From Ochrobactrum vermis (lineage in GTDB: Bacteria > Pseudomonadota > Alphaproteobacteria > Rhizobiales > Rhizobiaceae), in assembly GCF_002975205.1 (NCBI RefSeq), contig NZ_PCOC01000003.1:124001-188000 (forward strand): a stretch of DNA of 64,000 bases. The letters run 5' to 3'. The notes under the pieces are model-generated. The model ran no database searches. It was not told the origin of the DNA and saw nothing but the letters and a program-made list of their open reading frames with translations. The position numbers and the translations under genes were made by a program. Positions 925 through 21,586 of this stretch are shown here, piece after piece; position 1 is the first letter of the stretch; every line of letters starts with the position of its first letter.

Positions 925-2364
925 CTACGGAGCGGCCCTGGCCAGAATTTCAATCGCTCTCGTTTGTTCGCGTTCGTCCAAGCTGGCAAATCCAAGCCTG
1001 AACGCTTCTGGCGCGCTGGCGACATCGAGCTCGAAACTGAGTCCAGGTAACACCGCCAACCCGAGACGTGCGGCATTCGCTGCCCATGTTTCGGCGCTGA
1101 TACCGCTCTTTAACCGCAGCCAAATCGCAAGACCACCGGCTGGCAACGAGAACTCCGCAATGCCAGAAAAGCGCTCCGTCAGGAGTGCGGCGAGATGATC
1201 GCGGCGGGCGTGGTAAATGCGCCGAGCCTTGCGCGCATGCCGCTTGATCGTGCCATCGGCGATGAGGTCCGCCAACGCATGCTCCAGTGGCAGGTCGCCT
1301 TGGCGGTCTAGAGCCTCCCTGCGATCACTCATCTGGATAAGCAGTTTGAGAGGTGCTGCAGCATAGCCAATGCGGATGCCAGGTGCCAAGAGCTTCGAGA
1401 GCGAGCCGAGATAGATTATAGGAAGCTCTTCATCGCTCCGCGCCGCGAGCGGGAGGATCGGGCGACCGTCGAAACGATACTCGTTATCATAGTCGTCTTC
1501 GATAACCACCAGAGAATGCCGACGCGCGATTTCCAGCAGACGCAACCTTCGCGCCGCGCCTAGAGTGACGGTAGTTGGATATTGATGATGCGGGGTCACA
1601 TAAACCGCACGCAGATTGGGGTTCGTCTCCGCCAGACGCTCCAGCGCATCGACATCGATACCTCGGCTATCGACCGGCACGCCAGCAACCGCAACCCCGG
1701 CGGCGCGAAAGGCCGACCAGGCCAATGGATAGCCTGGACGCTCAACCGCGATCACACTTCCAGGCTCAGCAACCACCGACGCAGCAAGAAACAGCGCCAT
1801 CTGACTTCCCCGCGTGATCAGGATGTCATCGGCCGACGCCGTTAGTCCGCGCTCGTCGCGCAGATAAAGCGATAAAGCTTCGCGCAATAGTCGACTTCCA
1901 CGCGGATCCCCATAGGCTCCACCCGATGCGAACGAATTGATCACGAGCGCACGCCGGAATGCCTGCGCGAAGGCGGTCGCGGGAACCAGCCGAACGTCCG
2001 GATATCCATCGGACAGCTTCAGCATCGAGCGGGCAACCCGCCCGCTCTGCTGAATACTCGTAATCGAAGCCCGACTTGGACGCATAGCCGGCTTGATGTC
2101 CTCCGGGAGATCGGTCGCAACAAACGTTCCTCGCGATGGTTCAGTTGCAAGCCAGCCTTGCATGGTCAGTTCGTGGTAGGCCGAGTCGACCGTGTTGCGG
2201 TTGAGCTGCAGGCTTTTTGCCAGCGCCCGGGTGCCTGGGATGGGATCTCCAGGTTTCAGACGGCCACGCTCGATCTCTTCGGTAATAGCGCGCGCCAACG
2301 CCAGGAAGATCGGCTCGCGCCCTTCCGGCTTTACCTCAACGGCTAGTGACACACCTTTACCCAT
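925..2364 (-). CDS. MocR/PdxR-type transcriptional regulator (GntR HTH fused to aminotransferase domain)
   Basis: The N-terminal ~75 residues form a GntR winged helix ('ALAKSLQLNRNTVDSAYHEL'), followed by a fold type I aminotransferase domain. The PLP lysine lies in 'YLGSLSKLLAPGIRIGY' and the PLP-contacting aspartate in 'VIEDDYDNEYRFDG'. Such fusions sense PLP or an amino-PLP adduct; PdxR members control PLP synthesis and others GABA, taurine or D-Ala use. An ATG at 2364 is preferred over a GTG at 2373 because AAAGGTGG lies just before it. A perfect inverted repeat stands directly upstream. It is the only regulator close to the B6-enzyme cluster and a natural candidate to control it, but its targets cannot be read from sequence. 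Confidence 0.9.
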   Translation of the reverse strand: MGKGVSLAVEVKPEGREPIFLALARAITEEIERGRLKPGDPIPGTRALAKSLQLNRNTVDSAYHELTMQGWLATEPSRGTFVATDLPEDIKPAMRPSRASITSIQQSGRVARSMLKLSDGYPDVRLVPATAFAQAFRRALVINSFASGGAYGDPRGSRLLREALSLYLRDERGLTASADDILITRGSQMALFLAASVVAEPGSVIAVERPGYPLAWSAFRAAGVAVAGVPVDSRGIDVDALERLAETNPNLRAVYVTPHHQYPTTVTLGAARRLRLLEIARRHSLVVIEDDYDNEYRFDGRPILPLAARSDEELPIIYLGSLSKLLAPGIRIGYAAAPLKLLIQMSDRREALDRQGDLPLEHALADLIADGTIKRHARKARRIYHARRDHLAALLTERFSGIAEFSLPAGGLAIWLRLKSGISAETWAANAARLGLAVLPGLSFELDVASAPEAFRLGFASLDEREQTRAIEILARAAP

Positions 2365-2387
2365 CCGGCCCACCTTTTGGTTATCAT

Positions 2388-2404
2388 CTATCCCATCAGG
2401 ATAG
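2388..2404. promoter_or_regulatory. inverted repeat CTATCC-N5-GGATAG upstream of the MocR gene
   Basis: A perfect 6-bp inverted repeat with a 5-base spacer lies about 24 bases before the chosen start of the MocR gene. Position and symmetry fit an autoregulatory operator. A related GATAG motif follows at 2409-2413. Binding is inference. Confidence 0.35.
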
Positions 2405-19106: not shown

Positions 19107-20348
19107 ATGAAGCATGCCGCTGCACCATATGACATCGGGTCCATCCGAGCCGATTTTCCGATTCTAAAGCGTGAGATCAATGGTCGACCGTTGGTCTATC
19201 TCGATACCGCCGCTTCCGCACAGAAACCTCGGGCCGTCACACAGGCGATGGTCGATTTGATTGAGAATGACTACGCCAATGTCCATCGCGGATTGCATTT
19301 TCTCGCCAATCGGTCGACTGACGTCTACGAAGGAGTGCGCGAAACGGTGTGCCGGTTCCTCAATGCGTCGACGCCGCGGGAGGTCGTCTTTACTCGCTCG
19401 GTCACGGGCGCGCTGAATCTTCTCGCCTCCTCGCTTGGCAGACATCAGCGGATCGTCGAAGGGGACGAGATCATTCTATCCGAATTGGAACACCACTCCA
19501 ACATCGTGCCTTGGCATTTCTGGCGTGAGCGGCATGGTGCCGTGATCCGCTGGGCACCTGTCGACAACGACGGCAATCTGATTGTGGACGCTCTGGAAGA
19601 GCTACTGTCTTCGCGCACCAAAATTGTGTCCATCACGCATATGTCGAATGTGGTGGGCATGGTGACACCGATTAAGCACATTGCAGCGCTTTGCCGTGCG
19701 CGCGGAATCCCGCTCGTCGTGGATGGCGCTCAAGGGGCAGTGCATCTTCCACTCGACGTGCAAGATCTCGGGACCGATTTTTATTGCTTCACTGGTCACA
19801 AGGTCTACGGGCCGACCGGCATCGGCGTCCTATACGGACGACTGGAATTGCTGGACAAGCTGCCACCATTTGAGGGTGGGGGTGAAATGATTGAGACGGT
19901 CACGAAGGACACTGTGTCCTATAACAGCGCACCGCATCGGTTCGAAGCCGGTACTCCACCGATCATCGAGGCGGCAGGCCTGGGTGCGGCCTTGGATTAT
20001 CTATCGGGCATCGGACGTGAAGCTGTTCTCGCGCATGAAACAGCGCTCACACACTATGCCCATGCTCGCCTTGAAGAATTCGGCGGGATCGAGGTTTACG
20101 GCCGGGCAGCCCACAAAGGTTCGATCATCGCATTCAATCTGAAGGGCGCTCATGCGCACGACGTCGCTACTATTCTTGATCGAGCGGGCGTCGCAGTTCG
20201 CGCGGGAACGCACTGCGCCTCTCCCTTGCTTGCGAAGATCGGGAAAACCTCCTCCTGCCGGGCTTCCCTTGGGCTTTACAGCACCAAGGGCGAGATCGAC
20301 GCGTTGATTGACGCACTCGGAACAGCTCAGCGGATACTGCTGCCATGA
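19107..20348 (+). CDS. sufS: cysteine desulfurase, SufS type (PLP)
   Basis: This 413-residue class V aminotransferase-fold enzyme has 'YLDTAASAQKPRAV' at the N-terminus, the PLP lysine in 'CFTGHKVYGPTGIG', and the sulfur-accepting cysteine in 'VRAGTHCASPLL'. It takes sulfur from cysteine for iron-sulfur clusters. The usual suf partners are missing; instead the stop overlaps the trpB start (ATGA), so sufS and trpB are translationally coupled. AAGGATACCG precedes the start. Probably an extra copy outside the main suf operon. Confidence 0.9.
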   Translation: MKHAAAPYDIGSIRADFPILKREINGRPLVYLDTAASAQKPRAVTQAMVDLIENDYANVHRGLHFLANRSTDVYEGVRETVCRFLNASTPREVVFTRSVTGALNLLASSLGRHQRIVEGDEIILSELEHHSNIVPWHFWRERHGAVIRWAPVDNDGNLIVDALEELLSSRTKIVSITHMSNVVGMVTPIKHIAALCRARGIPLVVDGAQGAVHLPLDVQDLGTDFYCFTGHKVYGPTGIGVLYGRLELLDKLPPFEGGGEMIETVTKDTVSYNSAPHRFEAGTPPIIEAAGLGAALDYLSGIGREAVLAHETALTHYAHARLEEFGGIEVYGRAAHKGSIIAFNLKGAHAHDVATILDRAGVAVRAGTHCASPLLAKIGKTSSCRASLGLYSTKGEIDALIDALGTAQRILLP

Positions 20349-21586
20349 ACGCCGGGGTGAACTCATTCCGCAACGGGCCCGACGAGAATGGACGTTTCGG
20401 AAGATATGGCGGTCAGTTCGTTTCCGAGACGTTGATGACGCTGATCCACGACTTGCAGCGGGCTTACGACGAGGCCCGCCATGACTCGGAGTTTCTGGCG
20501 GAGATGCAAGGCCATCTCAAAACCTTTGTCGGCCGACCGTCGCCGCTCTACTTTGCAGAGGGCCTTACCAAACATTTCGGTGGAGCGAAGATCTATCTCA
20601 AGCGTGAAGATCTTAATCACACAGGCGCCCACAAGGTGAACAATGTGTTGGGGCAGGTCATGCTCGCCCGGCGCATGGGAAAACGGCGCATCATCGCCGA
20701 AACCGGTGCCGGTATGCACGGCGTCGCCGCAGCGACCCTCTGTGCCCGTTTCGGGCTCGACTGCGTCATCTACATGGGCGCGGTCGACGTTGCGCGTCAG
20801 GATGCTAACGTGGCGCGCATGCGTATGCTAGACGCCGAAATCCGGCCGGTACATACGGGTTCGGCAACGCTTAAGGATGCCATGAACGAAGCCCTTCGCG
20901 ACTGGGTGACGAATGTGGCTGACACCTTTTACTGCATCGGAACTGTTGCTGGCCCCCACCCCTACCCAATGATGGTTCGCAACTTTCAGTCTGTTATCGG
21001 CGAGGAAGCCCACCAGCAGATCTTCGATGTCGAAGGACGTTTGCCGAACGCGCTGCTTGCCTGCATTGGCGGCGGTTCGAACGCAATGGGGCTTTTTCAT
21101 CCATTTCTCGATAATGCGGATGTCGAGATATTTGGCGTCGAGGCTGCCGGTCTTGGACTAAACCGTGCGCATGCGGCCGCGATCGCTGGGGGCCGCGCCG
21201 GCGTGCTTCACGGCAACCGCACCTATCTCCTCATGGATGGAGATGCACAGATCCAAGAAGCGCATTCGATCTCGGCCGGACTTGATTATCCCGGTATCGG
21301 CCCCGAGCACGCCTGGCTTCACGACGTGGGTCGTATCACCTTCCTGTCGGCGACCGACGAGGAAGCGGTCGAGGCTTTTGGTCTTTGTTCGCGCATCGAG
21401 GGTATCATCCCGGCGCTAGAGGCGGCCCATGCACTAGCACGATTGCAAGACGTCGCAGGATCACGGCCGAAGGATCACGTTGTGCTCGTAAGCCTGTCGG
21501 GTCGGGGCGACAAGGATATCCCCACGGTCCTTTCGCACAAGGTAAAAGCAAGCGAGGCGGCACACGTGGTGGATTCGAGGATCTGA
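20345..21586 (+). CDS. trpB: tryptophan synthase beta chain (PLP)
   Basis: This 413-residue protein carries the full TrpB pattern: 'GRFGRYGGQFVSETLM', the PLP lysine in 'REDLNHTGAHKVNNVLGQ', 'AETGAGMHGVAAAT' and the phosphate loop 'CIGGGSNAMGLF'. It joins indole with serine to make tryptophan. No trpA lies beside it, so it would act on free indole or pair with a TrpA encoded elsewhere. Overlaps sufS by four bases. Sequence is canonical, consistent with TrpB1. Confidence 0.93.
   Translation: MNAGVNSFRNGPDENGRFGRYGGQFVSETLMTLIHDLQRAYDEARHDSEFLAEMQGHLKTFVGRPSPLYFAEGLTKHFGGAKIYLKREDLNHTGAHKVNNVLGQVMLARRMGKRRIIAETGAGMHGVAAATLCARFGLDCVIYMGAVDVARQDANVARMRMLDAEIRPVHTGSATLKDAMNEALRDWVTNVADTFYCIGTVAGPHPYPMMVRNFQSVIGEEAHQQIFDVEGRLPNALLACIGGGSNAMGLFHPFLDNADVEIFGVEAAGLGLNRAHAAAIAGGRAGVLHGNRTYLLMDGDAQIQEAHSISAGLDYPGIGPEHAWLHDVGRITFLSATDEEAVEAFGLCSRIEGIIPALEAAHALARLQDVAGSRPKDHVVLVSLSGRGDKDIPTVLSHKVKASEAAHVVDSRI

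Follow-up and report, generated by a model that had tools for sequence, protein, structure and literature searches.

A plasmid island of spare carbonyl-cofactor enzymes behind shared MocR/PdxR-type operator-like sites in Ochrobactrum vermis

MocR-family regulators have already been associated with cyanide and with enzymes that depend on pyridoxal 5'-phosphate (PLP). In Pseudomonas pseudoalcaligenes CECT5344, the MocR-linked cio cluster is reported to make SerC, HisC, ArgD and the nitrilase Nit4 under cyanide, and its mocR mutant is reported, as unpublished data, to be constitutive (PMC8567248, PMC10138600, PMC11049912); a table in PMC10138600 lists increases of 54-fold for SerC, 33-fold for HisC and 399-fold for ArgD in a column that we take to be cyanide over ammonium. 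According to PMC8567248, bacterial nit4 homologues in a similar context had not been described before. MpaR of Pseudomonas aeruginosa, also a MocR-family factor, answers cyanide, with the adduct PLP-CN as the proposed signal (PMC10790758). A further group, the PdxR regulons, was surveyed by Suvorova and Rodionov (2016, PMC5320631). Here we analyzed a 64,000-nucleotide stretch of Ochrobactrum vermis DNA (the window), which corresponds to positions 124001-188000 of the 269,404-bp plasmid NZ_PCOC01000003.1 (C3) in a 5.4-Mb genome of three contigs, and which carries in its left part an island of PLP-dependent enzymes (island A). We propose, with a confidence only just above even, that this island forms a single regulon under MocR/PdxR control, which would rescue cells when their carbonyl cofactors come under chemical attack.

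An earlier note on this DNA had described ten PLP-fold proteins and the two vitamin B6 enzymes PdxH and PdxJ within about 21 kb. Gene families were assigned by Pfam and NCBIfam profile scans with curated cut-offs on a part of the open reading frames (ORFs) of the window and the plasmid, and all twelve proteins were found at the described places (Table 1), argD in a broken frame and the alanine racemase gene alr as a remnant. Ten of the twelve exceeded a curated NCBIfam cut-off, the exceptions being DegT (Pfam cut-off only) and the alr remnant (below the Pfam cut-off). Catalytic residues are kept in GlyA, HemA, SerC, SufS, TrpB, DegT, the aromatic aminotransferase, MocR and phosphatidylserine decarboxylase (PSD), as judged by motifs that we take to be diagnostic. 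The scans also added members absent from the first list, namely YiiM, PSD, a glutamine amidotransferase, a 2-oxoglutarate (2OG)-Fe dioxygenase and tRNA-Cys, together with yggS and pdxY directly left of the window, where an operator, yggS and pdxY are followed by the lactate-permease-family gene that ends inside it. The pdxY gene and the permease gene after it each match their families in two frames, and permease relatives are present at other plasmid modules and in genome G018. A count limited to PF00155, PF00266, PF00291, GlyA and SerC gave 60 loci over 5.4 Mb, with a mean of 0.23 per 21 kb, a maximum of 3 outside C3 and 7 in the island; the PLP density here lies above that of any 21-kb stretch outside C3.

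Table 1. Coordinates of predicted operators and genes in the window. Operator scores are given for the wider, first and strict models described in the text.
Feature	Position	Strand	Basis and remarks
Lactate-permease-family transporter, 3' part	148..900	+	Pfam PF02652; gene begins left of window after operator-yggS-pdxY; two frames there
PdxR-type MocR regulator (GntR helix-turn-helix and aminotransferase-like domains, PLP lysine kept)	925..2373	-	NF052282 352 bits, cut-off 320
Predicted operator at mocR start	2362..2410	-	20.6 wider, 19.9 first, 20.2 strict
YiiM/MOSC protein	2594..3403	-	PF03473, PF03475; NF008577 below cut-off; ORF start overlaps tRNA, real start probably near 3316
tRNA-Cys(GCA), between operator and yiiM	3344..3417	-	ARAGORN; Rfam RF00005 49.9 bits (short stretch)
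Predicted operator before tRNA-Cys-yiiM	3449..3497	+	19.3 wider, 19.5 strict; only 8.9 first
Heme-o-synthase (ctaB) fragment	3602..4183	+	PF01040 positions 1-102 of 250
Trehalose-phosphatase-like HAD protein	4499..5494	+	TIGR00685 above cut-off; 56% relative in cluster B
Predicted operator near phosphatase start, inside longest ORF	4576..4624	-	18.3 wider, 13.7 strict
Aromatic/aspartate aminotransferase	5597..6820	+	NF006719 443 bits, cut-off 377
Weaker predicted operator before argD	7202..7249	-	15.3 wider, 10.2 strict
argD, acetylornithine aminotransferase, broken frame	7348..8519	+	Open part 7512-8519 above NCBIfam cut-off
Marginal operator-like site before pdxH	8718..8766	-	11.3 wider, 9.2 strict; near background
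pdxH, pyridoxamine phosphate oxidase	8827..9402	+	TIGR00558 246 bits, cut-off 180
pdxJ, pyridoxine phosphate synthase	9453..10223	-	NF003624 345 bits, cut-off 331
hemA, 5-aminolevulinate synthase (ALAS), Lys kept	10392..11759	-	TIGR01821 587 bits, cut-off 339
glyA, serine hydroxymethyltransferase, Lys kept	11813..13069	-	NF000586 597 bits, cut-off 335
Class-I glutamine amidotransferase, paired with glyA	13045..13749	-	NF005458 308 bits, cut-off 250
Predicted operator before amidotransferase-glyA unit	13825..13875	+	17.4 wider, 18.3 strict
PSD (pyruvoyl enzyme), Gly-Ser site kept	13926..14624	-	NF003677 351 bits, cut-off 315
2OG-Fe dioxygenase, free-amino-acid hydroxylase family	14725..15453	-	PF10014; PDB relatives include L-isoleucine-4-hydroxylase
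Strongest predicted operator, divergent promoter region	15679..15727	+	38.3 wider, 35.4 strict; top in first model too
Second predicted operator, divergent promoter region	15751..15800	-	19.0 wider, 19.5 strict
serC, phosphoserine aminotransferase, Lys kept	15876..17120	+	NF002841 631 bits, cut-off 477
Alanine racemase (alr) remnant	17124..17444	+	Below Pfam cut-off; 45-residue tail at 17483-17617
DegT-family aminotransferase, Lys kept	17779..18924	+	PF01041 312 bits
Predicted operator before sufS-trpB	18960..19008	-	19.9 wider, 13.4 strict
sufS, cysteine desulfurase, Lys and Cys kept	19107..20348	+	TIGR01979 543 bits, cut-off 475
trpB, tryptophan synthase beta, Lys kept	20345..21586	+	TIGR00263 601 bits, cut-off 392
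Catalase (HPII-like)	24082..25545	+	PF00199; NF008422 below cut-off
OxyR-like LysR regulator	25627..26571	-	Top NCBIfam match OxyR, below cut-off
Predicted operator before LysR gene	26679..26726	+	21.3 wider, 17.5 strict

The regions upstream of mocR in other genera share a 49-bp three-box pattern, roughly CCGGCCTAT-N7-GCCGGTTT-N11-ATAGGCCGGTT. A first model was built from 11 such sites, none of them from the island lineage, and its two best sites in the window scored 20.8 (the divergent region between dioxygenase and serC) and 19.9 (mocR), with six others at or above 10 reaching 13.4 and best scores of 9.2 to 17.4 on 15 shuffles. A wider model took in further sites from cluster B (the second copy on C3, described below), G018, G006 and Bosea, and the window contributed none, though some of the added positions are homologous to window sites; it returned nine window sites at or above 15 (2362, 3449, 4576, 7202, 13825, 15679, 15751, 18960 and 26679) against a maximum of 13.7 on 10 shuffles. 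These 49-50 bp sites all fall within the leftmost 27 kb of the window, each of them located at an island gene or ahead of one. When the training set was made without cluster B, G018, G006 and Bosea (the strict model), nine sites reached at least 13, eight of them at the same places, with a background of 24 per 1.11 Mb. Across C3 the wider model placed 10 sites in the 29.5 kb of A and 11 in the 45.5 kb that hold B and a third module, leaving just 1 for the 194 kb elsewhere on the plasmid. It found seven sites in 64 loci without MocR (1.11 Mb), and 20 column-permuted models gave 0 or 1 site in A. The exact core pattern occurs seven times in the genome, six of them on C3; with at most one mismatch it occurs 92 times, 20 of them on C3, the reversed pattern occurring 33 times. 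No operator site of at least 14 was found at the chromosomal GlyA, SerC and HemA loci, and the best score at the chromosomal PSD locus was 10.5 in the first model. The site at the start of mocR predicts autoregulation. Apart from those in the A, B and third-module regions, C3 has only one site of at least 15 (C3:247977-248027), which overlaps a 174-residue ORF to which no function was assigned.

The second copy of the gene set, cluster B, lies inverted at C3:41-79 kb, and a third was found in a Bosea metagenome-assembled genome (L061). The core order of cluster B is that of island A, i.e. HemA, GlyA, amidotransferase, PSD and dioxygenase, then divergently SerC, Alr, DegT, SufS and TrpB, and the Bosea copy has the same core gene order. 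Cluster B also carries ArgD, HisC, the phosphatase, an AhpF-like protein, YggS, PdxY and a thioredoxin, its aromatic aminotransferase being split by an IS21-type insertion. Amino acid identities for A-B, A-Bosea and B-Bosea, respectively, are 85, 84 and 87% for TrpB, 84, 83 and 83% for GlyA, 74, 76 and 77% for SerC, 74, 81 and 75% for HemA, and 76, 76 and 78% for PSD; SufS, DegT and the amidotransferase fall in a similar range, so that eight of the nine genes compared lie within 74-87%, and the dioxygenase varies most (60, 44 and 40%). Since the identities are alike across pairs, A and B are not a recent duplication. An apparent break in the cluster B glyA (one TGA) was rejected, as the frame is open from its own start, and the single stop in the Bosea glyA alignment, at aligned residue 7, precedes the probable start.

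Compared with their chromosomal counterparts in this genome, the window proteins show identities of 59-61% (GlyA), 60% (SerC), 55% (HemA) and 54% (PSD); for the Bosea island proteins against those chromosomal GlyA, SerC and HemA, the values are 61, 65 and 56%. On these sequence comparisons, which took in the island A and Bosea copies, the island copies resemble one another, even between genera, more than they resemble the chromosomal genes compared. Chromosomal copies of SufS and PALP/TrpB were found at the family level only. That the island genes might be the sole genomic copies is hence rejected for GlyA, SerC, HemA and PSD, and at family level for SufS and PALP/TrpB, for which the suggestion that they are spares holds; PdxH, PdxJ, the aromatic aminotransferase, ArgD and DegT lay outside the search. 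Of 31 comparisons, dS was saturated in 6 and unsaturated in 25, though it was above 1 in many of the latter. The dN/dS ratio was 0.04-0.18 in 24 of these 25 and 0.32 in one dioxygenase pair, which indicates that the island genes are under purifying selection. Among 397 genomes sampled from the order, a dioxygenase relative of any kind occurred in 16, and one above 60% only in this genome; within 10 kb, the full set was present at one (L061) of 80 loci, themselves the best 80 of at least 531 confirmed amidotransferase relatives, with smaller sets at others. Full islands hence look rare. The earlier note had asked whether other islands show the same PLP density, as a point against its reading; such islands do exist, but as relatives that share both the order and the operator of island A, they strengthen the case.

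It is worth noting that PSD is a spare pyruvoyl enzyme, which recurs in the clusters A, B, G018, Bosea, Pseudaminobacter and Shinella. The pyruvoyl group and PLP have only a reactive carbonyl in common, and it is mainly for this reason that we prefer chemical attack over PLP scarcity. The claim that a shared cofactor, and not a shared pathway, unites the genes agrees with the common predicted operator, with a regulator of PLP-sensing type and with the spare status of the genes; the theme applies mostly to PLP and is wider than PLP alone, as the pyruvoyl-dependent PSD behaves alike.

The other odd member is tRNA-Cys(GCA), which sits between operator and yiiM in four clusters (the window, G018 (L053), Bosea (L061) and Pseudaminobacter (L063)) and after an operator without yiiM in G006 (L051). 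ARAGORN, applied to the window and to sets of 29 and 60 loci with L132-L140 left out, detected no tRNA-Cys in cluster B, L062, L064 or L069, the last having a 79% match over 66 bases; the tRNA-Cys of L093 sits in an ordinary tRNA array. The other match to the island tRNA-Cys in this genome is 81% over 67 bases. Rfam at its gathering threshold reported no family over window positions 1-31000, although this tRNA reaches 49.9 bits when a short stretch is searched, a difference that we attribute to the Rfam filter. By eye, position 37 is U, not A, in the window and Bosea versions. The presence of this tRNA under the same predicted operator in several genera is a puzzle.

As to the agent, the earlier note had suggested a broad PLP antagonist such as canaline or cycloserine-like or hydrazine-type compounds. 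An attack on the cofactor is favored here as well, but cyanide is the leading candidate, being better supported than canaline or cycloserine, which are lesser candidates. Cyanide forms PLP-CN and inactivates PLP enzymes, although the same source doubts the physiological weight of PLP-CN on account of high IC50 values in brain homogenate (PMC9291117). The third module on C3 (34501-38918, L010) consists of an operator at 34501, yggS, pdxY and a permease piece on one strand, followed by a nitrilase gene at 37902-38918, whose top PDB match is plant NIT4 (E 6.7e-118) versus about 1e-53 for cyanide-degrading enzymes. On a plasmid of Agrobacterium sp. T29 (L005), a 57% identical nitrilase adjoins MocR and CydAB. 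SerC and a class-III aminotransferase are encoded some 5 kb away from it, and the 31-kb stretch also includes HemA and HisC; no other nitrilase relative above 30% was found among the 183 loci compared. The T29 plasmid thus holds a cio-like set outside Pseudomonas, comprising MocR, nitrilase, CydAB, SerC, class-III aminotransferase, HisC, HemA and a gene that we take to be sulfite-reductase-like.

Hydroxylamine-type agents are possible too. Relatives of YiiM are described as reducing N-hydroxylated compounds (PMC3831636), and a cytochrome P460-family gene lies near a MocR operator and dioxygenase in one genus. As the single best agent, cyanide was ranked ahead of hydroxylamine, since no operator turned up at the P460 gene and since this plasmid itself carries the nitrilase evidence. 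In the two loci of that genus (L168 and L174), a MocR of 66-67% identity and a strong operator adjoin a pyrroloquinoline quinone (PQQ) dehydrogenase, a VWA protein, a related dioxygenase, the cytochrome P460-family gene and a double major facilitator superfamily (MFS) transporter, which is presumably NarK-like.

Taken together, we infer a sequence of events that covers MocR binding, the inducing chemical and the tolerance of the isoenzymes. A small nucleophile, cyanide in the first place and hydroxylamine, hydrazine or aminooxy compounds next, would enter the cell and trap PLP and the pyruvoyl group. The PLP-holding aminotransferase-like domain of MocR would sense adducted or missing PLP and alter its hold on the three-box operators. 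The supply and buffering of B6 would then rise through PdxJ, PdxH and YggS (left of the window, where PdxY may be broken), and fresh replacement isoenzymes would be made, namely the aromatic aminotransferase, HemA, GlyA, SerC, DegT, SufS and TrpB, along with the pyruvoyl PSD; ArgD, Alr and HisC, which are intact in other copies, may serve likewise there. Peroxide defence would be made alongside the replacement isoenzymes. A catalase followed by a LysR gene was observed near MocR clusters in three genomes (window 24082-26726, L062 13579-16022 and L064 13460-16022); in the window and in L064, an operator adjoins the LysR gene, and AhpC-AhpF follows an operator in L063.

A number of observations weigh against this proposal. 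The ninth strict-model site lies inside mocR and is evidence of false matches; eight control loci (182 kb) were not empty, giving three sites of at least 15; sites 7202 and 8718 are weak (10.2 and 9.2 in the strict model), and no operator was found directly upstream of the aromatic aminotransferase gene or pdxJ. Cluster B has only a MocR-like DNA-binding piece and no full MocR. The nitrilase gene is about 3 kb from cluster B and 83 kb from the window island, in a module that is itself worn (yggS in two frames, the permease a piece). The T29 MocR next to CydAB is only 28% identical to the window MocR and so probably belongs to another MocR group, and searches of C3 with CydA and CydB of Agrobacterium T29 gave no match at E 1e-6. 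The proposal leaves the roles of tRNA-Cys, YiiM, the dioxygenase, the amidotransferase and the phosphatase unexplained. The window copy is decaying as well (argD, alr and ctaB, with pdxY and the permease left of the window): the open frame of argD begins at profile position 58, an ORF in another frame (7348-7713) resembles by eye the missing argD start, a 39-residue AhpF relic lies upstream of argD, and alr is intact at the same place in the cluster B and Bosea copies. Lastly, PLP shortage alone would explain all but PSD.

The last point belongs to the strongest of the alternatives, a B6-scarcity regulon in which MocR answers low PLP alone and the isoenzymes hold PLP more tightly, much as zinc-free paralogues substitute for zinc proteins under Zur. 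YggS, PdxY, PdxH and PdxJ in or beside the island suit this explanation, and PdxR regulons have been described as PLP metabolism regulons that include GlyA and ArgD- and BioF-family enzymes (PMC5320631). We nevertheless regard scarcity as unlikely, since PSD needs no PLP and yet recurs in all six of the clusters named above, and since catalase, AhpCF and the nitrilase fit it poorly. A response to damage by reactive products of PLP enzymes, such as 2-aminoacrylate, is improbable: it has been suggested for MocR regulons with RidA, and GlyA and alanine racemase are aminoacrylate targets judging from reference titles in PMC5320631, but no RidA was found among the island ORFs scanned, and PSD and the nitrilase are left unexplained. 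We give slightly less credence still to the view that the genes form a biosynthetic cluster, or that they protect an organism producing a PLP poison, the latter having also been raised in the earlier note. The free-amino-acid dioxygenase and the amidotransferase could act on a small molecule, but, leaving aside DegT and the alr remnant, the PLP and B6 members exceed the curated cut-offs of primary-metabolism models, we saw no biosynthetic assembly-line or exporter gene in the scanned ORFs, and the enzymes are retained in all three full copies, the dioxygenase being the most variable gene; self-protection thus finds no support here. A chance collection of unrelated horizontally acquired genes, to which the broken genes and mobile elements of the window might point, is rejected as next to impossible in view of the density, the order conserved in three copies, the shared operator and the purifying selection.

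The designation of the island as mobile rests on its distribution (plasmid-borne, different in G+C, missing from the 250 kb compared of a plasmid that shares the backbone, and present in Bosea), and no defined excision unit emerged. The G+C content is 57.7% in island A, 62.8% in cluster B and 54% in the rest of C3. A plasmid of Ochrobactrum sp. MT180101 has a conjugation and replication backbone that matches C3, mostly at 73-90%, but over C3 ~17-214 kb the matches to it are only scattered and 0.4-1.7 kb long; island query proteins gave no match at E 1e-30 to 250 of the 255 kb of that plasmid except a 28% ArgD-family one. At 218374-232070 of CP061774.1, a plasmid that shares this backbone, the annotation gives a BREX-type system. 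The window encodes a tyrosine integrase at 27683-29158, and tRNA-Cys was considered as its attachment site; this was rejected, as no convincing duplicate of the tRNA 3' end was found in the window (two matches with two mismatches, the chance expectation) or on the plasmid. No direct repeat of at least 22 bases was found in window positions 1-40000. Further right, at 33849-38270, an IS240-type transposase adjoins a DAO-type oxidoreductase, an IclR regulator, a truncated PALP enzyme and an aspartate-glyoxylate aminotransferase that is BhcA-like (covering profile positions 1-276 of 395 and scoring below cut-off), a set that we take to be a cut beta-hydroxyaspartate-cycle cluster.

A broader proposal is offered more tentatively, as one we hold at somewhat below even confidence: that the island is a transferable spare proteome set by cofactor chemistry, in which, once cyanide or another poison has put the cofactor out of action, a plasmid island under one B6-sensing regulator would replace much of the set of carbonyl-cofactor enzymes in a single response (up to ten PLP enzymes and the pyruvoyl PSD, together with a regulated tRNA-Cys). 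Such whole-cofactor replacement would be a resistance strategy distinct from single-target duplication. Resistance by target duplication normally concerns one target and one drug; here, if the proposal is true, the protected unit is a cofactor. The system offers a defined operator, natural versions of varied size across genera, and pairs of housekeeping and island enzymes for work on cofactor-poison tolerance. Among the matches listed in the open-licence literature, we found no description of this island or of a spare set for a whole cofactor.

Compared with known systems, the grouping is predicted to be a PdxR-type regulon by its regulator (NF052282), by a multi-box operator at most units and by its genes for PLP synthesis and salvage (pdxH and pdxJ, with yggS and a possibly broken pdxY to the left). 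It also carries a YiiM/MOSC-family gene, a family that we presume to be COG2258. Of the cio-type genes, SerC and the broken argD lie in the window and HisC and ArgD in cluster B, the T29 MocR used for comparison being 28% identical to that of the window. Like the island, the cio cluster places MocR beside spare amino-acid enzymes, several of them PLP-dependent (SerC, HisC, ArgD and CysM); it is induced by cyanide and has a Nit4 nitrilase, whereas the nitrilase of the island plasmid lies in the separate third module; the cio gene lists include CioAB oxidase, CysI, MetF, MaeB and DapA, where the island is without CydAB, and name no B6 genes, HemA, GlyA, SufS, TrpB or PSD, all of which the island has (PMC8567248, PMC11049912, PMC10138600). 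MpaR resembles the island regulator in family and controls a terminal oxidase subunit and neighbours, the relevant passages of PMC10790758 mentioning no spare PLP enzyme set, unlike the island. The explanation proposed here gives a testable reason for the odd collections of amino-acid enzymes in MocR regulons and the cio cluster, one that the cited passages do not contain. The closest likeness is to the PdxR regulons, which share with the island a PdxR-type regulator, a three-box operator in the arrangement that is the commonest there (<- -> ->), PLP supply genes, GlyA, and ArgD-family, BioF-family, COG325 (YggS), COG2258 and GuaA-family amidotransferase members (Suvorova and Rodionov, 2016, PMC5320631). 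To these the island adds SerC, HemA, SufS, TrpB, Alr, DegT, the aromatic aminotransferase, the pyruvoyl PSD, the 2OG dioxygenase, catalase-LysR and tRNA-Cys, and it is present twice; in sections 9-11 of PMC5320631, a CsdA-family cysteine desulfurase is named for the related PdxQ regulons and the other additions go unnamed. PdxR regulons being already known, what is unusual in this partly decayed example is its breadth, its two copies on one plasmid, its pyruvoyl member and its tRNA.

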